This document shows positions 25,188-62,416 of a DNA stretch of 64,000 bases, piece by piece (position 1 is the first letter of the stretch; each line of letters starts with the position of its first letter). The notes beneath the pieces were generated by a model. The model was not told the origin of the DNA. It was given only the letters and a program-made list of their open reading frames with translations, and searched no databases. This stretch comes from Onchidella celtica (lineage: Eukaryota; Mollusca; Gastropoda; Systellommatophora; Onchidiidae). Both the position numbers and the translations under genes were made by a program. The stretch spans positions 20,821,482-20,885,481 of the forward strand of contig OZ007569.1 of NCBI GenBank assembly GCA_963931925.1, read 5' to 3'.

Positions 25188-28100
25188 TCACTCCAGATTT
25201 CTGTAAGGAGCCATAAAATCATCATATGAATCTTGACGGCGAATGAGTTGCCATGTGTTTCCATCCACCAAAATCTCTGCTGCTTTCATCTGCAAATGTT
25301 AGAGAATAGACTAGTTTCAAAAAACATTTGAGAAATTTCATGTAGACTTGAAGCAAAATATTTCCAGGTTTCCAGCCTGTGAGAATGGATGTAATATAAA
25401 CAAACTATAGGTGCAGGGCACTGGCATGAGCAGTGATACTACATACATGCAGTTGCTCTATGGCTGCATTTTTTCTTAGACGTAATAAAATAATTGGAAA
25501 AGCTAAGTTAGAGAGGGGATACAACCGACAATAAGGCCAGTTGTTTAAAGAACTAACCAGTAGTTGCCCCTGTAACTGTCATCAACAAAGTGCTCCCTTC
25601 CCCTTCTCTTGATCATCTGCCATTTGAGACACCTTCCAACAATGCAGACAGTGGCAAGACAAGAAATAAAGCAATAACAAATCAAGAACAGAAGGCCTGC
25701 AGTCTCAAGCAAAGACCCTCAAGAAACAAAGAACTTTCATGAGTATTACACTGTATGACATTTCATCTTTGCTCTTTCTTGATACATCATGCCATGTATT
25801 TTTATGACACTCTAAAGTTCATCAAACATTGTAATAAAAGATGACATGGCAGGGAGTACACAGAGAACATTATCTTACCCGAACATTGTAGTTGGATGAC
25901 ATACTGTGGCAATAAGCACCAACATCGTGTATGGCCAACAGCCCATCTGGCGTATCAGGCAGAAGACGATCCTGAACATACACAGATATTAAATTTAAAT
26001 CAATTCCAGCAAAATTTGGTTCCTAGCTACTTCATGAACTCCGTTCACTAAGATTATAATTGGTTTGACCCCGCTGAACAAAAGAAAATGAGATTTGCAA
26101 AGTTCACACAATGAATTTTGGAAAACTGTGATTTAGCTATTATCTTCACGGAAACATATTTTCTCATGAACTTATGTCCGCTTTAGGAATATGGCCTGAA
26201 CATCGCCAGAAAGGGCAAGTTCGAGTCCAGGCTACAGCTAATAAAAGTTACAGTGAATGTGAAATAGGTGAATATTTTCACTCATTCAACCACAGCGACC
26301 ACTGACAGTGGCCATTGAGTGTCACAGAAATGCCCAGCAGGGTCTGATAATGGCCAGTGTAATAGAACTGGTTCCGTGTCATATTTTGATGTTTTGTAAT
26401 GACAAAATATGAAAGATTTTGGTTTATACATGGCAAAAATGAAGAAAGAGGCCATAAGGGGGCAAAAACAATGAAAAGTGGGTGGGGAACATGAATTGCG
26501 GATGACTTGGAGACAAATACAGGGCAGCCACTGACTTGTTCAACAGCAGGCGTAGATGGGTTTGATGAACAGAAAAGGCCTATTTTTATTTTCAGTGCAT
26601 TTGATAAAGGGTGTTTCCTGTTTTATGATGAATAATCAACATGCCTAGGGCTTTGAAAAACTTCGTATCATAATTTGTGTGAAGGATGCCTTCTAGTGAA
26701 ATGTACACGCTGGGTTTGATTTTGGTTTGGGGGTGGGGGTATCACCTGAAAATCTGGAGTTTAAGGGGGCAATTACCTGAAAAGGGTTGCTTTAAAAATT
26801 TGAAGAGAATCTCCAGCGTTTTGCACACTACTGTTTAATCTTCTTTTTACCTTGGCAAGGAAGTCTGTGCATTCACAAACAGGCCCCACAATGTCATACA
26901 GCTTTTTGGGGCAAACATCCAGTTTTGAGGCTGCCATAGTTGAGACTGCTGAGATGTGATGATAGGAGCCATAGAGACTTGGCCGAAGCACTTCTGCCAT
27001 AGAGGCATCAACTACTGCAAACCTGCAGATCAAATGAAGTACACAGATCATGCAATTTGCACTTATTTTGTTTCTGGTTACCACAACCACTTGAAAATGA
27101 AAATAAAGCAATAAAAACCATTTCAGAGCCTCCTCTGACGAAGTTATTACTAATAATGCTTGGCTGCAGTGATGCCAAGCACAGAATAACACACTATCAA
27201 TAGTGTTATCACCAAATTCACAAACTCAGGAAAAATTTTTATAGACTTTAAAAGAAGCCACTCAACACAGTGCCACTACAAACATCAAACCCCACCCCCA
27301 GTGTCCAACCCGAGTGAGATCAGTGGCTGTATATGCATTTTAATGATGTTTTATGCAGATTGCTCAGGGATGAGAGGAAAGAATGAAAAGAGCATCAAAT
27401 AATAATCAAATACAGGAAAAAAACGGTGCATCATTTACTGTTATACTGGTTTGCTATTACACTGTACAACGGGTCCGCAAGATAAATAACACGTGGCAAT
27501 GAGCTCATCTGAATTTTCGAGATCGGCGATACCAGCAGAATAAAATTTGTAAAATTTTACGCTCATGTACAATGCGACCCACTTACCCCATTAGCAAATT
27601 GGCCTTACAGTTGAAGTACAATATTTCTCACATGTATACATGAATATTTATAGTAATGAAATAAAATGGGCAGTTTTCAGAGGAACACTTGGAGGGCAAG
27701 GTTATATCATAAAAACAGGGAGACATGGGAGCTCTGTTAACATTTGCAAGCCAATATTTAATAATTTTTTGTGCCCCCTGTAGAAAATTCAAAATCAGAA
27801 TTAGATGAATAAAAACATACAGTAACGATATGTGAAACAAAGAGATTATTCCACACCTTTTGTTCAATGTTTGCTTCACTCCCAATGTCCGGGTCAGTAA
27901 GACACCAGTGTTTGCCACCAGTGATCGACCAGGCTCCAACATCAAGGTCACACCTTTATCTTTCAGCAGACTACTCACAGAAGAGATCAGTTCCCCAGGA
28001 CTGGCATGGCTGCCCTGAAGGTTCAGGTAGTGGAAATCATGAATGATATGCTTTCAACGTGCAATATTGTTTCAAATAGTTGTTTAAACGTCAGTCTTCA

Positions 28101-31100
28101 CTTCTAGTTGTAGCTGTTTTTAAATATTTTAAAGGTTTTTTTATGTTGTTTTTTTTAATCACAATTTTTTTTTTTCTTTTCTGTAGGTCATCAAGGTGCG
28201 GATCAAACCTATCCAGTGACTTCATGCACCATGAGATGCTGAGTTAGCTTCTTAATTAGTAACTGATCTGTCCATGTAACTTCCCCAACAGAGTGCAGAT
28301 CAAAACCGACAGACTTTCTTCCTTCTCAAGGAACTCGCAGCGGATCAGTGGACACAGATTTTTAAAAATAATTAAATTGTCTGGAAGTTTTTTAATTTGT
28401 TTCAATCTTACTACATTTTCACCTGATGAAAGTTTATTGGGACTGAAACCCCATTATTTTTTCCTTTCTAATTCTTTTCTGATTTATTTTTTGCATGTTT
28501 GTATTTTGTATACTTCTTTAATCCCATCAGGGACAGTAAACTTTTGTAAACTTTCTACATTGTTTCTAACATGGCACTTTAACACATCCGACATAAGACA
28601 AACCCAGTAACTTGTGACACTCTGTGTCATTATTCACAAATAATTATGGTATTTTCTCTGCGTTCATATCTTCAGTTTGTCTGCTGCTGAAATCATGCAT
28701 GCACCAACCTCTACTGCTCATAAAAAAGCACAAAATAACCTTTTACAGGTGGTGGCTATATGTAGTTGGGTCATGTAGCCAAAATATTCACAACAAATTA
28801 TGGCCAATTTTGAAATTTTATTTTTTTATGTTATCATAGCTAAAGCGCTGGTGAAAATGTTACTATACTCAACTTGCCAAACTTAATCCTAGTCCTAACA
28901 CTGTCTGAAACCCAGAAACCTTCCCGGACATGTCTATTTAATGTGAAAACAAAACCCACTTTGGCCTCATATTGCAAACTGTCATTCCATTCAAAGAATA
29001 TTTTTTTCATTGCATGAAATGGTAAAAACCTGAACTTCTCAACAAACATCACACTTCAATTGTATAAAATTTGGAACAACTGGTACTGAAACAGCCTGCA
29101 TTACCTAATGATATTCACTTCTACTATAAGGTCTGTTCAGCAAAATTTGTAAATGAACAGAAATGAAAAAATAAATATAAAAGTATCAAAATTTTCTATA
29201 TTTTGCATAATATCCTACCCTGATTTTGGTTACACCTGGGCACATTCTATCCAGATGTGGCTTCAGCGATGGATAACTCAACAGCAAAGCACTAAATTCA
29301 TCTTTTAAATCACTGAAGCTGATGCTGGTATGAAGAGAAGAGAATCATATTGTTAAACACATGAGCCATTAAGGGGGGGGACGGGTCCTGAAATCGAGTT
29401 TTGGGCTCAAAATGTCGATTCTTCCTTTTGTCAATTTTCGGAAGGTTCAACCATTTCTATTTACGTTTTTGATACTCATTTGACCTAGCTAAGCGTTTTT
29501 CCATAAAAAAACAAGACTTTCATGGGAGAGGGTCGAGTAAAATATTCGCTTCCAATCGAAGAAAATACGCTATAATTGCCAGTTCAAGGCACAATGAAAC
29601 GCCATTTCTGGTTGATTTGTGGTATAGGGACCCTTATATTGGAATCTCCCACTTGTATGAATGATCCAGAAAGGCCAGGAATGTATTGAGACATTTGGTA
29701 AACATCCAGACACTTTTTTCAGCCAAAAAACCTTTGCAAATTTTCAAACGCGTTTTTCTCAAAACTTACTTTTTTTACGTTAATTTCCTAACTCCTTTTT
29801 TATATTTAGTTGGATTTCGATGAAAATTGCACTATAGCATCTTTATGTTGTATACTAAAACAATTATTATCCACGTTTGAGTATCTTTTATAGTTTACGA
29901 GAAATCTATCATTTTTGTGGTGAAAAATCAAGAAAAATGCATACGCGCTATATACAATTTTCAGAAATTCTTGGAAAAACATCTATCAAAGATATCCAAA
30001 TAAAAATACTAAAATATCTTTATTATGTATTGAAATATAAGCATACAAAATTTCAAGATCATTTGTTGAAAAATGACGGAGCCTTTAGGTTTTAAAAATA
30101 GCTGTTTACATGGAGCCGAAATTCAAGATGGTGGAATAGCTGTTTACATGGAGGCGAAATTCAAGATGGTGGCGTTACCATGGTAACCAATAAGTCCAAG
30201 TACTTTTTTATACTTTTCTCCCCTAATTTGGACATGCTGAATTCAAATATGGAAGTTAAAATTGCCTACTCTGTGTTGTTTAGAATATCACTCTCAGGAC
30301 CCGTCTCCCCCCCCTTAAAGAAGGTGGGACAATTACAAAGGGAATGACTTGCTGGGCAAACAAACAGTGCTGGAGGACAAAAATAAACTGACAAACTAAA
30401 TCGTGGAAAGAATGAAAAGAGGAGGGTATGTGTGAATATGATGGCTAAAAGTATGATATGAATTTTTTTTTTTAAAAAGGAAAGCACCGCGGGTGGGGGG
30501 CACGAAAGAAAAAAAAATTCAGTTAGCAATGGGGCAAAATTTGTAACATTTATGGTATTTATTTTCCTTTTATGAATGACAGATATTTAAGTACATCTAC
30601 ACACGTTTCATCCTTGTAAAGCGTGATTGATGCTGCCATTTGTTTCAAAGCTTTCTGGACAGTTGGTGCATCCACTGTGGGGTACAAGAGAAAATCACTC
30701 GGGTCTGGTGGTGGCAAATCTGGGGGAATTAATAAAGTAGTCTTGCACAAACTTTTCAAAGAAAAGAATCTCATCATCTGATCTGCCTCACTGATTCATA
30801 TAAACACATGATCCCCCCTTTCCTTTTCCTGAATTCAGCCAAACCAAAAAAGAATATTTCACATACAGTTTCCACACCAGCCCTTCAATTTTGTATGCTG
30901 GATCACCAGTCATCATATCCTTTCACACACACACAGACTCAGTCCTTCATATAGAAATGTAAATGTCACCTTGCACAAATTGCCATTAACTCATCATCAG
31001 AGTGGATGAGGAGCAGCAGCAATGACAGTAAAGTAACCGTTCCTTAATCCATTTTCAGAAATCGTTATACCAGTTACCATTTTTTTGAGTGTAAGATCTG

Positions 31101-34100
31101 AAAGCTTGTTTTTTTTTTCTTTTCATTTCTAACTCTATTGAAATTTATTTTACATTTTCTTTACTATGTTTTTGTAAAGCAACGCTTTTTGTTTGTTTTC
31201 TTGTTTGAGTTTGGGTTTTACGGCGCATTGGCACAATAATGGCCACTTTACGGTTATCACGGTCTATTTGGGTGCTTTATTCATGTTTCATATTCAGAGA
31301 TTCACAAACACAATTAAATAGTTGCGTATAAATTTTATCACCTGGGCAAAATTCTCAAAAGTTGTTTTGTAGGGACCCAGAAAGAATTTTGTAAATGAGT
31401 ACGGTAAAAAAGTTTTTAAATCAAGGCTTGTGAAACAATTTTTTTCCCCCATATTCTAACTTTGTTCCAAGCCTCGCTGTTGACCTCATATGATTTTCTG
31501 TGGAATTTTACATTTATATACAACACCAAATAATGCACAGCAAACAGCAGCCACAAACATAAAGCAAGATTTACAACCTTTCATTTCTGCACCTATCGGT
31601 AATCTCTCAGCTTCCGTCAACAAGAACTGTCTCAGCACCAAAAGGTCATTTTGATTATTATCTGTGTCACTACGCCATGGACGAGTCTCCATCTCCTGAG
31701 GAATAGACGGCAGACAAAATCTTTTCATTACCAGTTTCTACCCTGTAATTTGTCTTTAGAGGTTAAGATTATTATTTCTTAAGTCTGTAGAATGTAAGCA
31801 GAGCAGAGTACAGTACAGCACAGCACAGCACAGCACAGTAGATGAAATATTATATTAAACGTTATAGGGGTGTTCAAACTGTGAGCAAAGCAGTACAAAA
31901 TCAGTCAAGTTTTATTTCTTCTCATTCTGCTTGACCTTGACAGATTGCTTTGGCCTATTCATTAAGTGACAAGAGTTAAGTCACTTCAGTGTGCATTGAT
32001 GTAGACCTACTTGAGTACTCTGCTACGTCTGCAGTGTGAACATGTACAAGCTCGGTATTCTGTTCTGCTCTCCTTCACTGACAGCTTTTAAGGGCCTTTA
32101 GACTCTTAAACTTCAGTTCTTGCCTAGTTTGTCTTTTTTCTTATTTGATTTCTGTCTTCAGCATTCCAGCTCTGTCTGTCTGGTTTAGCATTATGTAATA
32201 AGTGCCAAGGAAGAAAAGCAAGAAACTGTGGTGTCTTCTCATTTTCTCTTTTTTTAAAGGGCAGCAACTGGCTCCTTCCTAATGCTTCTGTCCTTCCCAG
32301 GTGTTTTAGACCTTCATTAAAAAAAAGACACACCATTATGTTTACATTTTAACCCTAGTCCTGTGTGAAGGGGATTAAAATTAAACTTTATCAAAGGTAT
32401 TATTCTGTGAATGTGTCACGAGTTACCTTTGTCCGTGCACTAAACTGTATCATATACTTGCGTTCTACACTGACCTTCTCTAGATAGTCGATACCCAGAC
32501 CGCCACCAACATTCAGAATATGGACATTAGCAAAGCCTTGTTGGATGAGGTTCTCTCTGATCGCCAGCAGCCTCTCCACACTCAGCCTGAGGTAGAGAAT
32601 CACAATTTTGGAATTGATGATAATATAGAAAAATCATGACTGTAGCAAAAAATAATGCTTTCATGTACATGTATTCTCAGTTCACCACCCATCTTTTTTT
32701 CTTGTCTGAAAGTTTCAGTTCAAATAAATAATTATAAATTGTTCAAAATAGTAATTTTGTAGCCATTATACCAAAGCCGCAGATCATGTTGTCACAAAAG
32801 TGACCATTTTCTCAGTTGTTCAGATTATTTCACCTACAATGAACAGCTCTTTAGTATTTGGCATAGTTTAGCACTGTTGTTTTTTTTTTGGTTGTTGTTT
32901 TTTATAAACTTTGATCTTATCATTATTTTATGCAAAGAAGCAAACTCAAAATCAGGCTGCAGTCTAACAAAGAAAAAAGAAACAGTTCCATAAGGTTAAG
33001 TATCAAATATGAGCCTATGATATTTGAAATATGTCCAGCAGATAGTTTTCAAGAAAACTAATATTGATTCTGCTCATTCAGAAAAAAACACACTGAAGCC
33101 CCTTCACTTATGTTCTTACTTTGATGGCAAATCGAGCTGGTATTTCACCAAAAAACTGACCCCTCAAAAGTTCTTGACGCAGAGTTTTGTGCGATTTTGT
33201 AGGCCTCTTATCTCCTTAATTTCAACTACTTTGTCATAAGGTTTTTCAGAAACATGCATTACTTTTTTTACAGAATTTTTCTTTCCACCGCGACTGCATA
33301 CGCTTAATCCTTTTTGTTGTTTTTTTCAGAATAATATACATTTTTGAAACATCTATATAAAATACACAATGCACTGAAAACAGATCTAAGAATATATGTG
33401 TTTAAGTAAATACTTAATTACATTTGAACAATGGGAGGGTATAGAAAAATATATTTCAAAAATGTAAATAAAAATCCAATCTGGTGAATGAGATAATTGG
33501 TTACCATGGCAACAGTTGGAGTTATAGACAAAGTGAACCCTCAGGATGTTTCTCTTTCTTCACTGACATAATAATAAGGCACAAAATGCATTGCTAATAG
33601 TGGCATGTGGATATTAGTTTTCACTGCAGCATATCCTCCTATCCAAAGTGGGTATCTATTATAAGGCGCTGGTGATGATTGATGTAATTTGCTAAAGCCC
33701 AACTTCTTGAGCAGTGTTTTCAGCTTGCACCTGAAGACATCTGTCTTGTAAATAGTGGAGCCCAGATGAGAATGCAGACCAACAAGCTCTACAGGGCAGC
33801 CAGGTTCCTCAAGCAGTTGAAGACATTTCTCTACCCCTCCTTCTGACAAACCAAATTTGCAATCTGACAGTCCAGTGTTGATGAACTTGTGTACATTCTA
33901 AGGGAAGAAATTGTTGGATTCTGATCACACAGCATTCTTGTGCTATTTAACCCTTTATGCATAAGATAAAAGAATTCATTATTTTGAGCCCTAACCATCA
34001 CTGTCTTTGATTTTTTTTTCAACTTGTGTCATTGCAACATATTACTGATTTTGGGAAAGTTTAACTGTGTTAAGAGACATAACCATTACCAATTGGCCCG

Positions 34101-37100
34101 CTTCCTAGGGAAAACACAACTGTGATTTTTAGAGTTGAGTTTCTATCACCAATGCATAAATTGAGGCACAGAATGAAATTTCCTGTCATACTTTTTAATT
34201 CTGCGTAAAGAAAATGTGCCTTTTTTTCTGGCTCAAAACGTCGGAACACTTTCTTCTGTTCAACTTAGCTGTGGCTCAAAATCAACGAAAGTATTAAAAA
34301 TGTACGAACTTCGAGACCTTTCCAAATATGCGCAATTACACTTTTACGTCTTACTATCCATAACTATCCATTTTTTGTACAATATAAGGCTCAGTGGTTA
34401 AAAGCCTTTCATTGGAGGTCTTACTTTCTGTAAAATATGATTTCGAGAAAAAGTAAAAGTTTTGACACCTCTTTAATCACTTCTAGTTCCAATATTTTTC
34501 ACTGAAGCAATCAGTTCTCATGCTAAATGCACAGCTGACAATGTAGTACAGTAAAAATCCAAGACTCACAAAATTGCATTGACTACCCCCCCCCCCCCCC
34601 CCATAGCATTTAACCTTTGCCGAACATCTCTAAAACTATGCATGGTGTATGTCATGGTGTCTAATCGACACCACACTCCTAAACAACAATTTATTAGGAT
34701 ACTTCTTTAAAAGTATGGTGTCTGTCAGATCCAAAAACGTACTAGTGAGGATATAACAATAAAATCGAGTGTGGTGTATCTGAGACCCCAGGACATACAA
34801 CTAAGGATATGATGATAAAATCCAACAATAAAATCCTTTGAGACCCCAGGACGTATGGGTAGGAATAGTAAAAAATGCATGTCCATTGGTGAGCACACAT
34901 GTACATATTTTTAACATTTTGAAACTGTGGGAAAATGGGCAAGGACATCACTGACAAATACCTGGCATTTCAAGAAAAAATTCCCCAGAAATAAGACAAT
35001 TAAAAACATTTTTAAATTCCTTCTGGGCCCATTATACCCGCGATATATGGCAAAAATTAAGTTGATACGGCTTTCAAGGGGCAAGATGCAGCTGGCATAT
35101 GCATCATAGCATGACCATCCTTACAAACAATGGATAAATTTGCGTACGAACTCACAGGATCAATGTTCAAGTTGAGTCTCAGCATAACTTTGGCTTGCTT
35201 GAGCGCTGAGAATTCATTCTGGCAAATCTCAATGGTCTGCCTGAGATCCCACTCACTGTCCACATTGATCAGTACACCTTTCTGTGAAAAGTTGACATTG
35301 GTCAGCCAAGCAGCATCAGAGCAAAAGATAAAACATTTTGCTTGCACCTTTCATGAAACCACACAAGTGCAGATAGAAAAAACTGTTTCACTTGTGAATC
35401 TAATACATTTTAGTAATACAAATAAATATTTGAAACATTGTACTCCTTATTGACCCCTTGAACCCATAACCCCAAAGTATGGAGGTGGAGGTTACTTGCT
35501 CCTGCCCTGTAATCCCGTATATTGGGATTTCAACACTTTACTAATTTACTCAATATATACAGGAAAATAAAAGCACCAACCAAAAATCTTTTTACATCAC
35601 AGATCCGCAAGCACAGATTGCAAATGGTGGCACCCAATTAGTGCATAGTTTTCAATATTTTAAACAATTTTATTCTACTACAGTCACGATGAGTTTTCTA
35701 CCCAGGAGCCCAGGGTTCAAAGAGTTAATCAAAGTAGAAGTAAAATTCCCTCAAGAAGTTCACAGTACATTCAGCAAAAAAAAGAGTTGTCATCTGCAGT
35801 TGTGCAAACACAATTGTGCTGTTTCATGATACAGCCAGTGATTTGGTACCCGAAAAATCTACATTGATAAATCTTGCTTCTTTACAAATACTTTCACTGT
35901 TCATTACATCATGATAAAGGAACACATTTGGCAAGCTGATTCCAGTCCGCCGGGCCCCTTTTTACTTTTGATATGTGAACTGGGTTTCCCTGAATTTAAG
36001 TCTAGCTAGAGTCACTGATGTTGTTCAGTTCAAGTTCACACGATAATATCGCCGTATTTTCATCATCACCCTTTTTTTAAATCTATGTACAAACCTGCAA
36101 CAAATCTAACACTTGTTCACAGGCTTAAGTATGGGCTTGGTTGGGTCATGTCCATGGTTTTCATAGTGCACATGTATTGTTTCCCAAACTTTGCCAAATG
36201 CATTGGAGTAAAATGAATGTCACCTGTCACCTGTCGGCTTCATCGTCATCGATGTTAGCTGCTACAGTGGATGTCACGACAAAATCTCCTCCACCCAATC
36301 CTGTCCTTAGCTTTCCTAGTTAGTTCACTTATTTCCAGCTGGCTGACTTTCTTGATGTTATCGTGATATGTAAAAATGAATGTACCTATTATATTATAAT
36401 CTGTAAATCTCTCAAATCTTCTAGCCTGTAACCAGTGAAAATTCCTGATTCTTGTGATGTAATTTTCATAAACATGAAGTGCATGTAATACTTACTTCCA
36501 GAATTTTTTTTTTATATATATGTTATTGAGATCAACAGGGTGTGCAGCTTGTGCAGATGCTCAGTAACAAAATCAGTGCACTGAATGTAGTTTGGGGTTT
36601 GAATGAGTTAACTGAAGTTGCCATTTTTAGTTAGGCTGAAGTTGTCCACACTGGTTGTCTGTACATTACTGAAGGTAGAAGATCCATATTATGTAATATG
36701 TCGAGTTCTTTGGCTGAAACTGTAATTCATATCAGTTGGATCTCATCATTCAAATATCTGAAATAGAAATATCTCCTAATGTATGAAAGTTTGTGACCTG
36801 GACAAGACAGCTGAGGTAAAAAATATGCACGCCCAAGAACAAGGGCATTTCTACAGAAAATGGCAACTATGGCAAGCACTCAAACTGCACTCTTGTCTAA
36901 ACATCTGACACATATCCTGCCGTGCAATGGCAGAGCGATGTTTATGTTCATTTCATAGTTTTGATAAAAACACAAAAAACTTGTGCAGCATGACCTTATA
37001 AATGCTTTTATTTATGAGTTTGCCATACTAGAAACCGCTGTTTCAGTAGCAGATACGTCTGTGTGCCTTTGACATAAAAGAATTATGCGTGAGACAAGTT

Positions 37101-40100
37101 CTCAGAGACAATAAAGTTGAAAAAGGCTACGCTATCAGGTACATCACTCTGCCTAGGGCATATCCATTACTTGACTTTTTCATAACATTGGCCCCATAAT
37201 ACAATTCAAACTCATTAACCTATTAATTATCAAACTGTGGTACTGCATGAAAATCGTAGGTTCACCTCGTTTATATCTGAAGAATTTTTTTCTTTTTCAA
37301 AATCCTGAGATGGCCTGTGTGACTTAAACAGAAAATGCTTTGGCAAACTCCCCTTCAAGTGGCACCCAGGGTACATGCTTTGCCTGCCATAATCTTAGTT
37401 AGATATGCCACTGCACGAGAGTTGATTGTCATGATCTTGTCATGCTGATAAATGGCTTTCTGTCCAATCAGCACATACCATGTTCAGCCATGGCAACCTA
37501 AATTTCCTATTGCAAAATGAAAGGCCAAAGGGAAGACTGTGCTGATCTTCAGACAGTGGTATTTAGTCAGCTTAAGCTTTATGGAAACAGAGCACTTGGT
37601 AAATTAATTCCTGATAAAAGTGAAGAGTATTTGAAGTGTATTCCCAGTCAGAGCTCAGAAAAGTGGGAGTAAGAAAAAGAAGTTCCACAAGTGACCCGGG
37701 CAAGGCCCGAACCCTCCATCTCTGCCAACCGCCCGACCACCTTGATAGGAAACAAGGAAACCAACCCTCTTAACCATTCAGCTACTTGTCTTTCCAAAAA
37801 CTTGAGGCAACTGCAGCTAACTTATGGAGTATTCCTTCTTCCTGATGAGTATTGATGCACGGGCTACACCCTGCCTATGTCCTGACAAGGTGGTTGTTGC
37901 CATGGCAGAGGCCCTGGGTTTGGGCACCGTTTGAGTCACTTGTCTTCCTTGAATTTCTTCTTTCTTTCACTCACATTTTTCCAAAGCCATGACAAGGCAT
38001 TCACATCCAGAATGCCTCACCTTTAGCTTGAAGTTGAAGTGATTATCAGATGGGTCGGTTGTTAAAAATGCAGGCATGGATTTTGGATAGGTAGATATAC
38101 AGAAGAGTAAACTAGTGAATAGATGATGAGCAGAAAGCTAGATTGTGACATGCAAGGAGAAATGACATTCTAAGCTATTAACCTTTTCCATACATCACTA
38201 AAAACTAAGCACAGGTATGTGATGGTGTCTAATAATTCATTAGAATACTCTCTTTCAAATATGGTTTCAGTCAGACCCCAGAATGTCTGAGTTGGGATAT
38301 AACAATAAAAACCTCTTTTGGAGTGTGGTGAATCTGAAACCCTAGGATGTATGACTCAGGGTATGACAATAAAATCCTAGAATAAAAATCCTCTTTAAAA
38401 GTATGGCATCTGTGAGACCGTATGATGTACAGGCAGGGACAGTAAAAATGCATGTGTATTGGTGAGCAAGCATGTGCATATAATACAATTTTAAAACTAT
38501 GGGAAGATGGGCAATGATGTCACTGCACTGAGGAATACCTGGAATTTCAAGGAAAAAGTTCCCAGAAACGTTTTTAATTGCTTCTAATTCTGGGTCCATT
38601 AGACTCATGATGTACAGCAAAGGTTAATAATAACTGACCGTTAATGGAGCTGCTCGGATTCCCCCAGTGGTCATATGACAGGTGGCTATAATGGTACGAA
38701 AATTTGACAAAAACTATTGAAGAGACCAGTACTCCCAGCCTTTCTGATAACTGTTCACAAAAGGACAGTTCATGCAAGAATATGAAAAGCTTTCTAACCC
38801 CTATCATGTGACAAGTTTGAGTTTGGAGAAAGCATATCAACACAATAATGGTCACCTTGTGCTGGAAAAAAAAACAAGACAAAAGAATAGAACAGAACGA
38901 TAGGACAGGAGGAGACCCTACAAAAAGTGCCCATAAAGTGACAAGGAGGTGAAGATTCCTAGCAACTCCATTAAATCCAGCCTATATTCACTGACAAAAA
39001 TTCATAAGAAGAATCGGATAATGCCCACCTCAATAGCCAAGCGGGTTTCCCAGTAGCACTTTCCTCCACCATTGAACATTAAGGACGAAGGTTCAAATCC
39101 AGCCTCTAATGCCAGACGCAGTTCATTCCCACTGACCAAAGTTGCTGACAATCCCAGGGACTGGAACTCCTTCAGTAAAGACAGATTCTGATTCGCCTGG
39201 AAAAAAACAATGACAGTGATGGTTATGGGCAATGAAAAATGGTCTATTTTGATATGGTTTGTTTTAGATATTGAAAAATGTTATTTTCACAAACAGCCAT
39301 CTATCTATTCATATCTCTATGTTTCTCATTCTGTGTGTTTATCTGCATCTGTCCAGCCACCTATATATTCATTCTCCTATAATCAATCCACCTATTTATC
39401 TACACATCCATCCATTAGTCCAACCACTGAGCAAGCAAAATATACTGTCGACAATATATTAAATTGGTTTGAACTAAAAATTTTAATTTGAACTCTGACC
39501 TTGAACTTGCAGAAGGGCCCAGGGCTCTAACAAGTCCCGTTAATAGTTTTCATTGGTACTTAATGAAGTCAACACTAAAATGGTTTACTTTTCAGATTGT
39601 GGCTCTGTCTACTTTTTTTCTGATCCATATACATCAAAACACTACCCACATTCCTCATTTTATGTACCCCATGCCTTTGATAAAAAACAACAGTTATTTC
39701 TATTTGCCTTTGCCCATCTCCTTTTCTCCACGACACACCCAGAGAATGAAATGTAAAGAAGCCACATGACAGAAAAAAGTGCAAACAACTAGACAAAATT
39801 AAATACACCCTTGCAATGCAAATAGCTGATAGAAAGATTCAAGGCCGTACTGGGCACTACCCTCTCTAAACAAACCAAAACTCTGAATGTGCAGTTTTTT
39901 ATAATACTTGGTGCAACTGCTGCAGCACTGAACAGTTTATTTTCCGCCCTACATTATTATTATCACTGGTAACAAAATGATTGTGCTGATTACAGTATTT
40001 GGGAGGTGCATGTGATACTGTAGTGGGTCAAGTGAACCACCACCTTTACTTTATTTCATTTACATCAGTATTGACTTAGGACTGGATGGCAGAATGTGAC

Positions 40101-41316
40101 TTTTAGGAGCCCAAATCTATAAACTGAAACACTAACAGGTGTGTTTACCTTGAACAGGAAAATACTTAGCAAACAAATATTCCTGGCACTACGGTATGCA
40201 TATGCTGAACATTTCTAGTGCTTGGACCTGTTTTTTTTTTTTCTAAACCATGACCTTAATATTATTTTGTACATGGAAGCAACTCAAAACTAGGCTACAA
40301 TCTAAAAAAATTTTTTTAAAAACCAGTTCTCTAAGTATGAAATACCTATGCAACCTGTGCAAAATTTGAAAGTTATCCAACTCAAATTTTTGTAGAAAAC
40401 TAATGTTGATTCCATTCTTTCTGAAAAAAAAGGGGGGACTAGAGTAACTAGAGCCCCTTAATTATTGTTCTTACTTTGATGGCAAAATTGAGCTGGTAAG
40501 GACATCCACAAACTCTCAAGGCATCCATGTATGCTGCAACATTTTCATGTAGCTGTTTCTTGCTGTACACAAACAATGGTGTCTGAGGACCCCTGTGCCT
40601 GTCCTCACACTGTGCCAACAGCTGCGACAGCGGCATCTGATGGAAAAAGCTGCATCAGTGCAACAAAGACAACAAACAAAACAAAACAACCATGGATTTA
40701 CCCTCAATGCAATATTTGCATTTCATTATAGAATTTTTTTGTATTTTACCATGTAGTAAGTTCTTTATGGCCGTTTACTGTACTCTGAAAGAAAAACAAA
40801 AATGAAGGACAGAGATTAAGACCTTGTTCATAAATGCAGACTCTAAACTGAACAATTTGCTATCCATATGGAAGAGAAAGAAAAGTACCTTCACAGTTAA
40901 AGAACAAGCTGTACATTTATAGATGTAAGGTCACATGGAGTTGCCAAGCCTAGCTAGAGCCTGCTTTATGTGTTAGCAGCTTGCTAGGCTTTGCAATGCT
41001 TTTTGTCATGACCCATGCCTTTTTATAAGCATTAAGTAAAAGCTTAAAGAATGCTTTCAGTTCTAATCCTATACTGCCTGTTCCCTCCAGAAGGATGTAA
41101 AGGTGGGTTGGGGGGGGGGGGGGCGCTTCATAGGAATGCATAAGTCCTAACTTCTCTCATAATAATGTGTGCAGAGATGCTTATACATAAACATCACAAA
41201 TTTGTCCTTTGCCACACATGTTCACACAATACCCCATTGATTTGCCTGGATACATTAATTCTTACCTGCTCGCAGCACATCTGCCCATCAATATGCTTGA
41301 ATGACCGTGACACCAT
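25188..41316 (-). CDS. lysA: Diaminopimelate decarboxylase-like protein, 13 exons
   Basis: PLP-dependent fold-type III decarboxylase; family reaction is meso-diaminopimelate to L-lysine plus CO2. Exons, high to low: 41266-41316, 40475-40636, 39029-39196, 35156-35281, 33731-33897, 32475-32586, 31578-31695, 30605-30719, 29219-29318, 27857-28014, 26851-27022, 25879-25971, 25188-25289 (TGA 25188-25190). Every intron is GT-AG and phases agree, giving 547 residues. Visible motifs: PLP lysine in FAIKANQN (K71), LVSGNELRLAL (about 91-101), HSHLGS (His211/213), GGGLGID (252-258), EPGRSLV (400-406), RPSLYGSYHH (439-448), VCECTD (474-479) and DVGAY (499-503). The N-terminal wording before TPLFVYSK and the NELRLAL block resemble plant-type LysA. 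No transit peptide is seen. The start is the first ATG of exon 1; an acceptor-like CTCCTCAG just upstream means a 5' exon may be missing. The usual length is about 420-480; the excess is the exon 7-9 block. No stop or frameshift was seen. The exon 9 acceptor could lie 6 bases further upstream. Confidence 0.9.
26440..26789. mobile_element. hAT-type element fragment, copy 2 (intron 11)
   Basis: Diverged relative of the element at 15992-16417. It shares GATGGGTTTGATGAACAGAA, CAGTGCATTTGATAAAG, TGAAATGTACACGC and a GGGGGCAATTACCTGAAAA right end in the same order. Its terminal repeats are lost. It lies inside intron 11 of the decarboxylase gene, about 60 bp from exon 11. Confidence 0.65.
28740..29060. 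repeat. Dispersed repeat in intron 9, related to 2291-2480
   Basis: Shares TAGCCAAAATATTC, a CTTAATCCTAGTCCTAAC-like run and TCTGAAACCC in the same order with about 2291-2480. The family is not recognised. Confidence 0.35.
29219..31695 (-). CDS. Exons 7-9 of the lysA-like gene: 111-residue in-frame insert
   Basis: Three consecutive exons (31578-31695, 30605-30719, 29219-29318) total 333 bases. Exon 6 ends in phase 0 after GGGLGIDYLEK and exon 10 starts in phase 0 with GSHASPGEL, so the three exons form a phase-neutral block coding residues 263-373. Known family members run directly from GGGLGID through a short linker to the PxPxDL-like helix, which here is SPGELISSV, so the block is extra. 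It is hydrophilic with short helical stretches (LRQFLLTEAERL, APTVQKALKQMA, DEFSALLLSYPSL) and a PPPDPSD turn. I do not recognise a domain. Exon 7's donor (GTTGTA) and exon 8's donor (GTGTGT) are weaker than most others in the gene, which would fit alternative inclusion. That reading is inference. Confidence 0.75.
29373..30314. mobile_element. TTAA-flanked element (piggyBac-like), intron 8
   Basis: The 942-bp element is bounded by TTAA (29369-29372, 30315-30318). Its inverted ends are GGGGGGGGACGGGTCCTGA at the left and, read from the right, GGGGGGGGAGACGGGTCCTG, so they differ by a 2-bp indel. It carries a 38-bp direct repeat near its right side (AATAGCTGTTTACATGGAG twice, about 30099-30172) and a perfect GTTACCATGGTAAC palindrome at 30174-30187. 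It has no transposase. It makes up most of intron 8 and ends 54 bp from exon 9. Confidence 0.7.
31203..31370. repeat. Dispersed repeat in intron 7, related to 16806-17000
   Basis: GGGTTTTACGGCGC, then CACGGTCTATTTGGGTGC, then TTCACAAACA, in the same order as at 16806-17000. The family is not recognised; it is possibly a SINE or MITE of this genome. Confidence 0.45.
31800..31842. repeat. (GCACA)n short tandem repeat, intron 6
   Basis: Runs of CAGCACAGCACA within intron 6 of the decarboxylase gene. Confidence 0.7.
32870..33140 (-). pseudogene. Partial copy of lysA-like exon 2 end plus its intron, inside intron 5
   Basis: Read on the minus strand, the segment around 33110-33140 repeats the last 25 or so bases of exon 2 (the part coding QLNFAIK with the PLP lysine) together with the following donor and intron. 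It matches 40190-40500 in order: an AGCTGGTA edge, TTTGATGGCAAA, the GTAAGAAC donor, GAAGCCCC, a run of A, then GCAAAACTCAAA-like intron sequence. It is diverged, with many small indels. The exon part is too short to code anything. It is best read as an old local duplication within the gene. Confidence 0.6.
34614..35056. mobile_element. TTAA MITE family A, copy 1 (intron 4)
   Basis: The 443-bp element is flanked by TTAA (34610-34613, 35057-35060) and begins CCTTTGCCGAACATC. The interior shares long blocks with the 442-bp copy at 38182-38623 (GGATATAACAATAAAA, CCAGGACATAC, GTAAAAATGCATG). The right terminus is eroded but still holds TGGCAAAAA. It is non-coding. Confidence 0.65.
35454..35724. 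mobile_element. Short TTAA-type MITE, diverged (intron 3)
   Basis: Inverted ends: CCCCTTGAACCCATAACCCC at the left, and GGGTTCAAAGAG (preceded by CAGGAGCCCA) at the right. The flanks are TTGA at the left and TTAA at the right, the former presumably a mutated TTAA. It is non-coding. Confidence 0.45.
37688..37791 (-). repeat. tRNA-derived SINE head, minus strand (intron 3)
   Basis: On the minus strand it reads AGCTGAATGGTTAAGAGGG (box A-like), an intervening segment with a GGTGGTCGGGCGGTTGG stretch, then GGGTTCGGGCC (box B-like). The layout resembles a tRNA-Leu/Ser-type promoter. The sequence then runs into a non-tRNA tail, so it is a SINE rather than a tRNA gene. Confidence 0.5.
37880..37945 (+). 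repeat. Second SINE head, inverted relative to the first
   Basis: Plus-strand TCCTGACAAGGTGGTTG, GCAGAGGCCCTGGGTTTGGG and GAGTCACTT match, in order, the minus-strand reading of 37681-37750. The two copies face each other about 90 bp apart, forming an imperfect palindrome in intron 3. Confidence 0.5.
38182..38623. mobile_element. TTAA MITE family A, copy 2 (intron 3)
   Basis: The 442-bp element is flanked by perfect TTAA (38178-38181, 38624-38627). Its inverted ends are CCTTTTCCATACATCA and TGATGTACAGCAAAGG. It is the sister of 34614-35056 and almost the same length. piggyBac-like by its target; it is non-coding. Confidence 0.7.
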
Positions 41317-43500: not shown

Positions 43501-43507
43501 GTAAAAC

Positions 43508-46500
43508 CAGAGACCTTATATAGCGAGACAGGTAACTGTGGCTGGATCCGCGTATCTGGGTCAGGCATCCGTGTTGGCATTAACGGCGGTAACTGAAGAC
43601 AAGTCTTTATTCTCGGCAAGAAGCTTACATTGTTATACCGTATAATGGTGTAAGCTCCTCGATTCTCGGTAGTTGTAACAATGGCGAGCACTAAGAACAC
43701 ACACTGTAAATGGTGTTCCGCTATGTACTGTACTAATTCAAACAACAAACGACCGGATTTATCATTTTTCTCCTTTCCATTAGACCCAGTCAGGTAATAA
43801 ACTTTTACATGGCTTTTATTTTTATTTTTTTAAAGCATCGGGTCATCAGCATACATTTATTGTCCAATTTGTTACAAAATTATTGTCAAATGCATTGGCA
43901 TTGACTTAAAGTTAAGGTATCCTTGATAGTTTGAATGTACTTTAAAAAATTAAAACTATTTTATTCTCGTAAATTATGACGCTTTGGTTGTTTCAAGATT
44001 ATTGTTAGATTGAAAGATTAATTGTAATTGACAGATTTTTTTAACGTATGCATGACTGTGATTAACATTCTGGAGTGTAGTGGATGTCTATGCAATGAAA
44101 GAAAAGAAAATATTATCCATTAGATTGAGCGTGACATCTTTGTGGCAAGGCATATTGTCATTCCTTCTCCAGATGCAAGAAGTGGGTAGTGAATACACGA
44201 AGGGCTGATCTAGAGAAGAAGTCGGCTGAAGCACTGCACAAGAGCAATGTTCTGTGTTCAGAGCACTTTGAGCCATGCTGTTTCAGCACAACAGCAACAA
44301 CGAGAAAACGATTGGTGAAAGGCGCCGTCTCAACAATTTTCAAAGTGCCAAATCCACCCCCCAAACTCACTGGAAATCGACCATTGCCTACACGCATCAT
44401 TCAACCTTCTCCTCCCCCCGTATCCTCATCACAACAAAATGAACCTGGATCCCCAAATACAGGCGATGCCGACAAAAGGCTAGAAACAATTAAAAACTTT
44501 TTGCGAAAAAAGCTTACAGCGCAGAGAACAAAGATCTGGCGCCTTAAGAAAAAGCTTCAGAAGTCTCGGGAAGAATCTGCACCAAGTGAAACAATTACAG
44601 AAGATGGCAGGTCTTTGGAAGAAATACTCAAACCGCATTTGTCAAAAGATGCCCTCCGCTTTGTCTTAACCCAGATCAGGGTTTCTAAATTATCCAAAGG
44701 AGCACGCCGCTGGACTTTTGCCGATAAAAGCTTTGCGTTGTCCATATACCATGCGAGTAGAAAAGCTTACAGTTTACTGCAAAAGGTTTCCACTTTCCGT
44801 CACCCAGAACTCTGTCTTTGTCCATGAAAAATGTTCACATACAACCTGGACTATGTCAGAATATTCTGAATATGTTCAAAATTAAAGTAAAGGCCATGGC
44901 AGAGAAGGAAAGATTATGTGCCATTATATTTGATGAGATGGCCATCAAGTATGGTATTCGTTACGACCCAACTCATGACAAAGTTGAGGGTTTTGAAGAC
45001 TACGGTATTTGGGGTCGGTCTCAGAAGCAAGCTAACCAGGCGCTCGTTGTGATGGTCAGAGGAATTTACACCAAATGGAAACAGCCTTTCACCTATGTCC
45101 TATCACATAATTCAGTAAGATGGAACATACTGGAGCTGATACTGCTGGATGCCGTGGAGCAACTGTTACAGCTGGGACTGATTCCTAAGGTGATGATTTG
45201 TGACCAAGGGACCAACAATAGAGCTGTTGTGAAAAAGTTGGGAGTTACAAATGACAAGCCTTTCTTTTGTGTGCAGGAGCACAAGATTTTTGTCATGTAC
45301 GACCCTCCACACTTGATGAAAAATATTCGAAACAACCTGAAGAAGAGTGGCTTTTTCATGCAAGGACGGAGTGTATCGTGGGAGCACATCGTTAAATTTT
45401 TTGAAATGGACTCTTCGATGCCTATCAGGATGGCCCCAAAATTGACGAAGAGACATATAGAAGTACCTGCTTTTGCGCACCTTCGTGTCAGCCTTGCTGT
45501 GCAGGTCTTAAGCCATACAGTAGCTGCTGGCATATCAACTATGGTTACCCTCAAGGCCTTACCTTTCGAAGCACTGGCAACAGCAGAGTTCGTGGAACAG
45601 TGGGATAGACTGTTCAATTGCTTCAACAGCAGGAGCCTTCACAGCAAAGCCAATATGAATCATGCCGTGACACCCAAGTCTGGCCATTCAAAGTATTTAG
45701 AAGATTGTCTAAAATGGCTTGATGGCATCACGTGTAAAGGGTCTACACTTCCTTCCCTGGAGGGATGGAAGTTATCTATCAGCTGCCTCTTGCAGTTGTG
45801 GGAAGATCTTAAAACCAACTTCTCTTTCAGTTTCCTCCTTACACATCGCCTCAACCAGGATTGTCTGGAGAATTTATTCTCTGTCATTCGAGGAAAGGGT
45901 GGGCATCGATTTAATCCGGATGTCACAGAATTCAGATCATCACTTCGACAGACAATGGTAGATTCACTGCTTGTGACAGGGGAGAGGAAGAACTGTAAAG
46001 ATGACATTGATGCCTTTTTGTTCAGTCTGGAGAACGTCGAACCAACAGGTGGCACCAAAGCGATTAGGTCAAGACTGCAGCAAGATGTACCCAGAGTGCT
46101 CCAGGCTGTCATGAAAAAAGTGCCAGACGTTCCATTACTTTCAGACAAGGAAGAAAATATTCTTGCCTACATTGCAGGCTACATCATTTCAAAAATTGAC
46201 ACTGTCATCTGCGATAACTGTAGAGGTCAGCTATCTGTAGACAAAGACATCACCAATCCAAGCCATCAGTTCATATGGTCCAAGAATTTTGACCAATGTC
46301 AGGGGGGTGGCTTGCGATTCCCTTCATCCAATTTCCAGGAATTTTTAAGATGTGCAGAAAAGGTATTCCGAACCGTTGCACCAGTCAGCCTTCACACTTC
46401 AGGATTGCGGTGCTCAATCGTTCGAAAGATTACAGAAGCAACATACGGAAACGAAACAGAAGAGGCTCTCCAATGTGACTCTTGTGATAAAACATTCCTG

Positions 46501-46977
46501 ATTATTAATCTTTTTGTCAACATTCGTCTGCATCATCTGATCAAATGTAAGAACCTGAACAAATTCAGCCTAAGGTCAGGACAACGTGTGCAAAGAGGAA
46601 GGCAACAATCTTTGATAACAAGTAACAACTGAAAGAGGACATTCATTTATCGTTAGGATAACACACTTTTACTGAGTAAGTCAATCAATTAATGTCAGTT
46701 CTTTTATAGCTGCTACCCTCTCCTTCTCCAGTCCTATCCATAGACTTTCCTCCTTTTATCACACTCATAAAACTATTTATCATCTTTATCTAAACGTCAG
46801 TAAATTGAAAGAAATAGTGCCCATCATCGCCTCTTATTCCACTATTGTCAGCCTCCCAGCTGACTGTGCGACCGCCGTTATCTGTATCTGGGTCGCGCTG
46901 GGCCTGTCACACTGCACTGCAGTGCAAACGTATGGAGCGGCCCCGGCAGTTACCTGTCTCGCTATATAAGGTCTCTG
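43508..46977 (+). mobile_element. P-superfamily DNA transposon, full-length copy
   Basis: The 3470-bp element has about 30-bp inverted termini (CAGAGACCTTATATAGCGAG; the complement ends at 46977). It is flanked by the 7-bp direct repeat GTAAAAC (43501-43507, 46978-46984). It encodes a THAP-domain transposase. The second copy at 47418-49204 shows the same ends and also a 7-bp duplication, so the boundary is consistent. Known P and THAP9-type elements usually make 8-bp duplications, so the 7 is notable. Confidence 0.88.
43681..46632 (+). pseudogene. THAP-domain P-element transposase, one frameshift
   Basis: Exon 1 (43681-43793) begins ATGGCGAGC and codes the first THAP zinc ligands and the SFFSFPLD block. 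A GT-AG intron (43794-44172) leads to exon 2, which carries CKKWVVNTRR and LCSEHF, completing the THAP DNA-binding domain. A basic coiled-coil-like stretch follows (about 44480-44580). The transposase core includes IIFDEMAIKYG (catalytic Asp), MICDQGTNNR (Asp), DPPHLMKNIRNN and CLENLFSVIRGKGG (terminal acidic region). It ends at 46632. The frame changes near 44787: the deleted sister copy reads GGTTTTCCAC where this one has GGTTTCCAC, so this copy lost one T. Otherwise the second part (44818-46632) is open. The copy appears recently inactivated. Confidence 0.85.
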
Positions 46978-46991
46978 GTAAAACTTTAGAA

Positions 46992-47386
46992 CAGTGATTC
47001 TCAGAGTGGGCGATATCAGCCCCCTGGTGACCTGATTCTCATTTCCAGGGGGAAGGGGAGGGGAGGAAACAAAGAAAAGGGCGACAAGTGGGCGAAAAAG
47101 AGGAATGGGGGCGATATGGAAGTTTAGGGGAACCAGCAATGAAGAGAAATTTGGGGGCAAATACATAACAGTCATTGACCTCTTCTACATCATGCTTAGA
47201 TGGGTTGGATGAACAGAAAAGAGTTGTTTTTTTGTTTAGTGCATTTGACAAAGAATGGTTTCTGCTTTATATTGTATCATCAACATGTTTGTTGTTTTTT
47301 CTCCAGGGAAATAGGGGGAAAAGTGGGCGCTGAAAGAAAATTTGGAGTCTGTGGGCCAATTGCCTGAAAAGCATTAAGAACCACTG
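46992..47386. mobile_element. hAT-type non-autonomous element, copy 3
   Basis: The 395-bp relative of 15992-16417 has ends CAGTGATTCTCAGAGTGGG and TTAAGAACCACTG. It is flanked by similar 8-mers CTTTAGAA (46984-46991) and CTAAAGAA (47387-47394). It fills nearly all of the short gap between the two P-type elements. Confidence 0.7.
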
Positions 47387-47417
47387 CTAAAGAAGGTGAA
47401 ATCGAGCTGGGGGATAC

Positions 47418-49204
47418 CAGAGACCTTATATAGCGAGACAGGTAACTGTGGCTGGATCCGCGTATCTGGGTCAGGCATCCGTGTAACGGCGGTAACAGAA
47501 GACAAGTCTTTATTATCGGCAAGAAGCTTAAATTGTTATACCGTATAATGGTGTAAGCTCCTCGATTCTCGGTAGTTGTAACAATGACGAGCACTAAGAA
47601 CACACACTGTAAATGGTGTTCTGCTATGTACTGTACTAATTCAAAGAACAAACGACCGGATTTATCATTTTTCTCCTTTCCATTAGACCCAGTCAAGTAA
47701 TAAACTTTTACATGGCTTTTTTTTTTTTTTAAAGCATCGAGTCAGCATACATTTATTGTCCAATTTGTTACAAAATTATTGTCAAATGTTGGTCAGGGAT
47801 GGTAATGCATTGGCATTGACTTAAAGTTAAGGTATCCTTGATTACTTTGAATCTACTTTAAAAAATTAAAACTATTTTATTCTCGTAAATTATGGCGCTT
47901 TGGTTGTTTTAAGATTATTGTTAGATTGAAAGATTAATTGTAATTGACAGGTTTTTTTAACGTATGCATGACTGTGATTAACATTCTGGAGTGTCTTTCG
48001 GATCTAATATGTAAGTTGGTCTGAAAAGGAAGCAAAGTGGATGTCTATGCAATGAAAGAAAAGAAAATATTATCCATTAGATTGAGCGTGACATCTTTGT
48101 GGCAAGGCATATTGTCATTCCTTCTCCAGATGCAAGAAGTGGGTAGTGAATACACGAAGGGCTGATCTAGAGAAGAAGTCGGCTGAAGCACTGCACAAGA
48201 GCAATGTTCTGTGTTCAGAGCACTTTGAGCCATGCTGTTTCAGCGCAACAGCAACAACGAGAAAACGATTGGTGAAAGGCGCCGTCCCAACAATTTTCAA
48301 AGTGCCAAATCCGCTCCCCCAAACTCACTGGAAATCGACCATTGCCTACACGCATCATTCAACCTTCTCCTCCCCCCGTATCCTCATCACAACAAAATGA
48401 ACCTATGGATACCCAAATACAGGCGATGCCGACAAAAGGGTAGAAACAATTAAAAACTCTTTGCGAAAAAAGTTTACAGCGCAGAGAACGAAGATCTGGC
48501 GCCTTAAGAAAAAGCTTCAGAAGTCTCGGGAAGAATCTGCACCAAGTGAAACAATTACAGAAGATGGCAGGTCTTTGGAAGAAATACTCAAACCGCATTT
48601 GTCAAAAGATGCCCTCCGCTTTGTCTTAACCCAGATCAGGGTTTCTAAATTATCCAAAGGAGCACGCCGCTGGACTTTTGCCGATAAAAGCTTTGCGTTG
48701 TCCGTATACCATGCGAGTAGAAAAGCTTACAGCTTACTGCAAAAGGTTTTCCACCTTCCGTCACCCAGAACTCTGTCTTTGTCCATGAAAAATGTTCACA
48801 TACAACCGGGTCTATGTCAGAATATTCTGAATATGTTCAAAATTAAAGTAAAGGCCATGGCAGAGAAGGAAAGATTATGTGCCATTATATTTGATGAGAT
48901 GGCCATCAAGTATGGTATTCGTTACGACCCAACTCATGACAAAGTTGAGGTTTTTGAAGACTACAATAGTCTTTCCTCCTTTTATCACACTCATAAAACT
49001 ATTTATCATCTTTATCTAAACGTCAGTAAATTGAAAGAAATAGTGCCCATCATCGCCTCTTATTCCACTATTGTCAGCCTCCCAGCTGACTGTGCGACCG
49101 CCGTTATCTGTATCTGGGTCACGCTGGGCCTGTCACACTGCACTGCAGTGCAAACGTATGGAGCGGCCCCGGCAGTTACCTGTCTCGCTATTGTAAGGTC
49201 TCTG
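47418..49204 (+). mobile_element. P-superfamily transposon, internally deleted copy
   Basis: The 1787-bp element has the same inverted ends as the full-length copy and a perfect 7-bp duplication GGGATAC (47411-47417, 49205-49211). It keeps the 5' 1.5 kb (THAP exons and start of the core) and the 3' terminus. About 1.7 kb corresponding to roughly 45005-46740 of the long copy is missing, with the junction near 48964. This matches the internal-deletion derivatives well known for Drosophila P elements. Confidence 0.85.
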
Positions 49205-49216
49205 GGGATACTTTAG
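47585..49216 (+). pseudogene. Truncated THAP transposase of the deleted P-type copy
   Basis: THAP exon 1 (47585-47697) and exon 2 (from about 48132) are present. Small indels near 48316 and 48405 disrupt the frame relative to the long copy. From 48461 the frame reopens through LKKKLQKSREES, KGARRWTFADKSF and KVFHLPSPRTLSLSMKN to FDEMAIKYG, then enters the deletion and terminates in the 3' end. It retains the T that the long copy lost. It cannot encode a catalytic transposase; whether it could act as a truncated repressor is speculation. Confidence 0.75.
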
Positions 49217-49462
49217 AATAGAGGGGGATGTTCTAGGTCAGGATATCCTACATTATCAGGGGGGTTAAAATAGGATGGGGGATATTCCAGGATGTCACAC
49301 CGGCCTACTTGGTTGGCTTGTAATGTTGTATTCCTTTTTGTAGATTCTCTATCGAGAGCAGACCGAGACTGAATTGTAAGCGGGACGCTCTTTGTTAGAA
49401 ATGCGCCCACCGTTCAGAAGTGTATATCTATGGCGTCCACACTTCACACTACACTATTATTG
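49212..49462. other. Short unannotated spacer
   Basis: GGGGGATATTCCAGGA-like repeats at the left end; otherwise no recognisable feature. It ends in the CACAT target site of the LTR element. Confidence 0.4.
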
Positions 49463-50653: not shown

Positions 50654-50654
50654 C

Positions 50655-50700
50655 TGGGGGCTCGTCCGTTGTGACACTGGGGGCTCGTCCTGTTTACCTG
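50655..50700 (+). promoter_or_regulatory. Primer-binding site, tRNA-Pro type, present twice
   Basis: TGGGGGCTCGTCC directly follows the LTR and recurs about 31 bases later within a duplicated GTGACACTGGGGGCTCG segment. The sequence matches the proline-tRNA binding site familiar from gammaretroviruses. The first copy, next to the LTR, is in the standard position. Confidence 0.75.
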
Positions 50701-56233: not shown

Positions 56234-56576
56234 GGCAAGATTTCAGGAGCTTATACATCAGAGGACAGGAACATTGACAGGATCTGTGTGAATAAGTCGA
56301 CTTTAAAATATTGACATTATAAATATGATATGAAGAATGGTTGATAGGTTGAATGGGTTTTGATTCTGTATTAGATATTGTGTTTAGTTAGCTATTCATG
56401 ATGTGACACATATATGCATATTGCAGGCCATATTGATCCCCATGTTTTCCCCTGATTTCGGTATTTTATATACTAGGGGAACGGCTAGGTCAGTTTTTTT
56501 TAATGTAGGTATTGCTCAGGCTCACTCGTTGACAGTCATCTTGATGCGATTTGAAATTAATTGCATTAATTTTTTT

Positions 56577-56590
56577 GGGGTGGGGGATGA
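56577..56590 (+). promoter_or_regulatory. Polypurine tract
   Basis: GGGGTGGGGGATGA immediately before the 3' LTR, in the standard place for plus-strand priming. Confidence 0.7.
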
Positions 56591-62365: not shown

Positions 62366-62416
62366 ATGGCGGCCAACTTACGGCAAGCCTGCCTCGACCT
62401 AGACAGTGCGGCTAAA
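62366..62416 (+). CDS. Candidate first coding exon of an unidentified gene
   Basis: AAAGATGGCGGCC gives a start codon inside a YY1-like AAGATGGCGGC motif, often found at animal promoters. The frame MAANLRQACLDLDSAAK then meets a strong donor (AAA/GTAAGG at 62416/62417). No downstream exon was recognised before the window ends and the product is unknown. The case rests only on start context and donor. Confidence 0.3.

Follow-up and report, generated by a model that had tools for sequence, protein, structure and literature searches.

By the textbook account, animals are unable to make the amino acid lysine, and the gene treated here, lying in a 64,000-nucleotide stretch of the genome of the gastropod Onchidella celtica (contig OZ007569.1, positions 20,821,482 to 20,885,481; hereafter the window), is a predicted diaminopimelate (DAP) decarboxylase (DAPDC) gene that would make it from DAP. 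Described counterparts encoded by animals include the lysA and dapF genes of whiteflies and mealybugs, which provide the final two steps from DAP to lysine, with whitefly lysA grouping with Planctomycetes and dapF with Enterobacteriales as separate transfers tied to symbionts (PMC4607527). In choanoflagellates, which are close relatives of animals, DAP-pathway genes have been reported as bacterial or algal acquisitions (PMC7971027, PMC4046809); dapF and lysAC are described there, as are amino-acid genes with sponge and cnidarian orthologs (PMC7971027). A coral DAPDC has been listed among horizontally acquired genes, its source being given as chlorophyll-c algae (PMC4878875). Searches of the open-access literature, judged by titles and the beginnings of abstracts and leaving most subscription papers and bioRxiv outside, listed no paper on a DAPDC of molluscs or amphioxus or on DAPDC as a bilaterian gene, and the family is, as far as we have seen, recorded in databases and apparently unstudied. 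The snail gene differs from the whitefly and mealybug genes in being of the plant-type subfamily of lysA and in being common to spiralians and deuterostomes.

Judged from its sequence, the window gene encodes a DAPDC and not an ornithine decarboxylase (ODC) or antizyme inhibitor. When a 436-residue core (exons 1-6 and 10-13) was compared with the PDB, Arabidopsis DAPDC1 matched at 2.5e-99, which excludes a chance likeness, and other DAPDCs came next; the best ODC reached 2.9e-11 and antizyme inhibitor 2.1e-07, scores that rule out an origin from either of these proteins, which have their fold class in common with the snail DAPDC but are far less similar to its core. Both Pfam domains, PF02784 and PF00278, the alanine-racemase-like barrel and the C-terminal sheet domain, are present. 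Against the NCBI lysA equivalog (TIGR01048, EC 4.1.1.20) the protein scores 345.1 bits with a cut-off of 297.9, a cut-off that alone is no proof of activity, as apparently dead acorn-worm paralogues, described below, pass it too. All 12 catalytic positions that were checked, and whose functional roles we assume, are kept (the lysine that binds pyridoxal 5'-phosphate (PLP), the HSHLGS-type histidine, GGG, EPGR, RPxxY, CE and GAY). The DAPDC identity proposed in an earlier note on this DNA is thus borne out by the PDB scores and the lysA equivalog, and a placement with ODC finds no support, the tree described below having been built without ODC rows. A PLP decarboxylase repurposed for another substrate (for example a D-amino acid or a different diamino acid), with the DAPDC fold kept and the insert described below as part of the change, is an unlikely if serious alternative: every catalytic position checked is retained, the lysA cut-off is passed while the score against the DokD ornithine/lysine decarboxylase model is 134 bits, far under its cut-off of 700, and the DapF-like genes of the snail genome point to DAP.

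The gene lies on the minus strand (coordinates are positions in the window) and was rebuilt as 13 exons running from 41316 to 25188, with a product of 549 residues and its sole stop as the last codon. All 12 introns, of 589 to 3747 bases, are bounded by GT..AG, and the phases are consistent across every junction. The earlier note had likewise seen thirteen exons on this strand, with agreeing GT-AG boundaries and phases, and an intact frame of 547 residues; all of this was recovered except the length, the difference probably reflecting a boundary set slightly differently. Exon 1 (41266..41316) begins with ATG (MVSRSFKHIDGQMCCEQ) and aligns with relatives; this ATG is the chosen, predicted start, and the reading frame stays open 5' of it. 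Exon 2 (40475..40636) ends in ..LNFAIK and contains the predicted PLP lysine, residue 71, and exon 3 (39029..39196) overlaps a lysA profile match in the snail's own genome at 39014-39202; FAIKAN is split over the junction between these two exons and so is invisible to a plain six-frame scan. Exon 4 (35156..35281) of the rebuilt model is followed by exon 5 (33731..33897) with HSHLGS and a lysA profile match at 33700-33897, and by exon 6 (32475..32586) with GGGLGID, which ends in phase 0. Exons 7 (31578..31695), 8 (30605..30719) and 9 (29219..29324) encode the three parts of an insert, each aligned with relatives, the last again ending in phase 0. Exon 10 (27857..28014) carries EPGRS, exon 11 (26851..27022) RPSLY and CEC with a lysA match at 26788-27024 (E 1.6e-12), exon 12 (25879..25971) DVGAY with a lysA match at 25861-25980, and exon 13 (25188..25289) the C-terminus and a TGA stop. 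The motifs FAIK|AN, HSHLGS, GGGLGID, EPGRS, RPSLY, CEC and DVGAY, reported by the earlier note in the order of the family, are all present in that order in the spliced protein. A shorter model of 10 exons, which leaves out exons 7-9 and gives 436 residues in frame, was dropped, and the 13-exon model preferred, because the nearest relatives contain the insert; skipping of exons 7-9 is possible, and would keep the frame, because phase 0 flanks them on both sides.

Compared with Arabidopsis DAPDC1 and DAPDC2 (PDB 6n2a and 6n2f), the snail model is without a transit-like extension, its start being predicted, and has 113 residues, encoded by exons 7-9, between GGGLGIDYLEK and EPGRS. Arabidopsis DAPDC matches the snail protein in two stretches, and these exons fall in the gap that separates them. 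These exons align with the proteins of Bradybaena, Lymnaea, Biomphalaria and Physella, and the insert is present in the nearest relatives, molluscan proteins that bear database annotations as names (Biomphalaria 'diaminopimelate decarboxylase, chloroplastic' and the Bradybaena hypothetical protein BsWGS_10984, for example). Measured as the number of residues between the tyrosine of the GGG loop and EPGR in the rows of the main tree described below, the spacing is 30 in all 15 plant and algal rows, 28-31 in 39 of the 43 rows filed as bacteria (35-42 in the other four), 30-34 in seven deuterostome rows and 31 in the sponge. It is 85-142 in 16 of the 21 spiralian rows, window included, and 44-48 in the remaining five (Dreissena, Ruditapes, Mactra, Mya and Owenia), which lie near the longest bacterial spacings; the eight unnamed rows have 98-124 in seven cases and 48 in one. 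The lengthened stretch before EPGR is therefore general among the spiralian rows, though short in five, and is longest, at 142, in the window protein. An AlphaFold2 model of the Bradybaena ortholog, built from a 50-row alignment (mean predicted local distance difference score 91.5, predicted template modelling score 0.90), shows the insert as helical, with helices at 273-291, 295-299, 310-325, 331-342, 346-355 and 357-360; the fold and its comparison with the PDB were made on the whole chain of this ortholog only. Our guess is that the insert serves regulation or docking. In Dreissena (P0089) and Mya (P0184) another long insertion stands between RPALYGAYHHI and VVGPVCES.

The window sits on contig C3; the whole assembly has 43 contigs and 1,140,862,475 bases. 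Searched over this assembly, the lysA profile gave six matches, four of which are exons of the window gene and two of which are weak matches on contig C5 adjoining PF02784 exons read as ODC; with the best candidates scored, this profile revealed no second DAPDC locus in the 1.14-Gb assembly. PF02784 itself gave five matches, all on C5, and missed the window's own gene. Introns 7 and 11 contain diverged copies of repeats that are also present in the flanks, and diverged repeats are common to introns 3 and 4 and likewise to introns 2 and 5. That the gene is decaying or a contaminant deserves next to no credence given its 549 open codons, its 12 clean junctions and the relatives in four other snails, whose identity to it is 52-64%; contamination in particular is ruled out by the contig, the introns and the repeats common to introns and flanks, and the earlier note's argument from host repeats holds good.

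Relatives were drawn from three protein searches, each of which scored about 8000 candidates and listed the best 120. Among the matches listed, the closest proteins are those of gastropods, the stylommatophoran Bradybaena similaris coming first, with whole-alignment identities to the window protein of 64% for Bradybaena, 57% for Lymnaea, 52% for Biomphalaria and 57% for Physella. The listed matches further comprise bivalves, the chiton Liolophura, the brachiopod Lingula and the annelid Owenia, as well as deuterostomes (the amphioxus Branchiostoma, the acorn worms Glandiceps, Ptychodera and Saccoglossus, and the sturgeon Huso) and a sponge protein (P0017, EukProt label Em0021g403a, which we read as Ephydatia muelleri). 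A scan of viral contigs returned no relative. The main tree holds 95 rows (61 proteins, 33 bacterial loci and the window), without ODC rows, insect lysA transfers or choanoflagellate genes; several of its eukaryote rows carry source labels only, and of the rows filed under bacteria five are environmental proteins without a name, two of them placed among the red algae. In this tree the window protein nests with other animal copies, in a clade (support 100/96) of the window, 27 named animal rows and eight unnamed rows that includes gastropods, bivalves, the chiton, the brachiopod, the annelid, amphioxus, acorn worms and the sturgeon. Its sister clade (100/98) brings the sponge together with plants, algae, Poribacteria, Chloroflexi and a few other bacteria, and the two clades are jointly set on a long branch (100/100, 0.76), separate from ordinary bacterial lysA.

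The simplest reading of these sequences is that one gene was present in the bilaterian ancestor, was inherited vertically within bilaterians and was lost many times; several early transfers, each from a similar source, are conceivable. As relatives from Spiralia and deuterostomes share one clade, a horizontal step, if there was any, would most simply precede the bilaterian split. The old horizontal acquisition suggested by the earlier note is thus partly supported and needs a wider frame: the window protein nests among animal copies, the gene is not peculiar to the snail lineage, and a gene of early bilaterians fits, the gain of introns after a transfer being a putative step. A recent transfer from algae or bacteria into snails, or into molluscs, could appeal to the best non-animal matches listed, which are plants, algae and Poribacteria at 41-46% identity, and is nonetheless very improbable with amphioxus, acorn worms, a brachiopod, an annelid and a sturgeon inside the same clade and with the lengthened stretch before EPGR common to the spiralian rows.

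The sponge protein is drawn with red algae, outside the animal clade, and could be a transfer of its own, a symbiont's gene or a true sponge gene. The p-AU values of the topology tests are loose, the tested groups having been named after inspection of the tree; on that footing, forcing the sponge with the animals is not rejected (p-AU 0.16), a single clade of all eukaryotes is rejected (0.0142), and the sturgeon, drawn weakly among spiralians (88/80), can be forced into the deuterostomes without rejection (0.307). A focused tree with 57 rows does not resolve the deep animal splits. The sturgeon protein (P0125, Huso huso, on a 41-Mb contig) is a vertebrate DAPDC without the insert that keeps the 12 checked catalytic positions. 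Two acorn-worm proteins, P0205 of Glandiceps and P0247 of Ptychodera, pair in the tree (100/100) and score 363.8 and 340.4 bits against lysA, above the 297.9 cut-off; their PLP lysine is replaced by Gln and one GGG glycine by Glu, Ile or Met takes the place of the EPGR arginine and Gly or Arg that of the catalytic Cys, and from these replacements they appear to be a dead paralogue, a pseudoenzyme.

The DapF profile, run over the snail assembly, found three open reading frames (ORFs; L090, L091 and L092) within about 117 kb of contig C11, at 17.73-17.85 Mb, each of 425-447 residues and stop-free through the match. Two of them score 144.0 and 145.7 bits against the DapF equivalog TIGR00652 (cut-off 114.65), and all three have the motifs LCGN and ACGTG. 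Repeats of the window recur in the flanks of two (L094 and L095), in one stretch at 98% identity over 199 bases; the flank of the third (L093) gave no repeat match to the window. The upstream pathway was searched for DapA, DapB and DapL, by a six-frame, exon-wise search of the assembly, DapD/DapE, Ddh and aspartate kinase lying outside it. DapB_C gave no candidate; the plant DapL profile gave one frame, at 36 bits against a cut-off of 364.7, which is an alanine aminotransferase; and the DapA profile gave no true DapA, its one exon being nearest to 4-hydroxy-2-oxoglutarate aldolase HOGA1 (5.8e-17, versus 9.2e-12 for the best dihydrodipicolinate synthase). In this the snail differs from the plants with their chloroplast DAPDC. 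The earlier note's premise that animals lack the lysine pathway is too simple, as the snail genome also has DapF-like genes.

It is quite unlikely that the snail DAPDC is the last step of a complete lysine pathway whose upstream enzymes escaped the search or come from gut bacteria, on the pattern of whiteflies and mealybugs. There is a precedent in the whitefly, whose host dapF and lysA complement genes missing from the symbiont, and in the independent transfers of the mealybug (PMC4607527). A genome search can, moreover, miss split genes, as the PF02784 search did with the window's own. Neither DapB nor DapL nor a true DapA was found in the search just described, and we know of no obligate lysine symbiont of snails.

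We regard it as fairly probable that the window gene encodes a working plant-type DAPDC of the lysA subfamily, vertically inherited in bilaterians, which would salvage DAP from bacterial walls to L-lysine; the activity, the cell location, the source of DAP and the role of the insert are parts that we infer. The snail enzyme would bind PLP through Lys71 and decarboxylate meso-DAP at its D centre to yield L-lysine. The snail, presumably unable to make DAP, would take up DAP released from the peptidoglycan of bacteria that it eats or that live in its gut. LL-DAP occurs in the walls of Streptomyces, and the DapF-type epimerase of the snail genome could convert it to meso-DAP where needed, such that DapF and DAPDC together would form a salvage branch from bacterial walls to lysine, with the helical insert as a putative lineage-specific regulatory or docking piece. 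Salvage seems the most likely role because DapF-like proteins and a DAPDC are present and no DAP-making route was found. Several points weigh against salvage by a working enzyme. In the window protein the catalytic Cys-Glu is followed by Cys and not Ser, as in 9 of the 37 animal rows with the window included, and the insert could have altered substrate or activity. The third DapF-like ORF, which has no ATG where the other two start and was read from a GTG with its first residues missing, scores 108.3 bits, under the cut-off; the two cysteine motifs lie 226-248 residues apart in the three ORFs, farther than in the solved DapFs aligned with them, and the snail proteins may, to go by their sequences, differ in function. 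Finally, the absences of DapA, DapB and DapL are weak and suggestive, because the PF02784 search overlooked the window's own gene.

Taken jointly, these data allow a broader reading, possible rather than probable, in which bilaterians kept an ancient branch from DAP to lysine (DAPDC, here with DapF) that recycles bacterial peptidoglycan to yield this supposedly essential amino acid, surviving in feeders on sediment, films, plankton and detritus (a conjectured link with feeding) and lost elsewhere. Spiralians would have added a helical regulatory cassette of exons (exons 7-9), which in Owenia and some clams became short again, and the dead paralogue of acorn worms may act as a regulator of the active enzyme, a parallel to the origin of antizyme inhibitor from ODC. 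The shared DAPDC and the snail DapF-like genes make the conversion of bacterial-wall DAP to lysine by animals directly testable; if true, it would change views of nutrition in feeders on bacteria and detritus and of the losses at the origin of animals, and the insert, along with the acorn-worm paralogue that appears to be dead, would add a second natural example of the reshaping of a PLP decarboxylase in animals.

The window gave no tRNA, nor did any RNA family reach the gathering threshold in it, and ten further ORFs at 76-24577 matched no Pfam family. On the other side of the gene, a P-element-like transposon at 43506-46994 has TNP-like RNase H and GTP-binding domains and a weak THAP match just below the cut-off, and a shorter second copy, at 93-97% identity, occupies 47416-49221. 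At 49468-57773 lies a young long terminal repeat retrotransposon, with repeats of about 1.19 kb that are 99.7% identical and a 5-base duplication, CACAT, read from the element ends. Its ORF at 51625-55125 (SCAN-like, zinc knuckle, integrase) precedes that at 55133-56233 (reverse transcriptase, RNase H); the integrase thus stands ahead of the reverse transcriptase, yet the reverse transcriptase and RNase H models look Gypsy-type, an arrangement that we take to recall Gmr1-like elements. A tandem array with a 50-base period and self-matches of 90-97% lies at 62372-62871.
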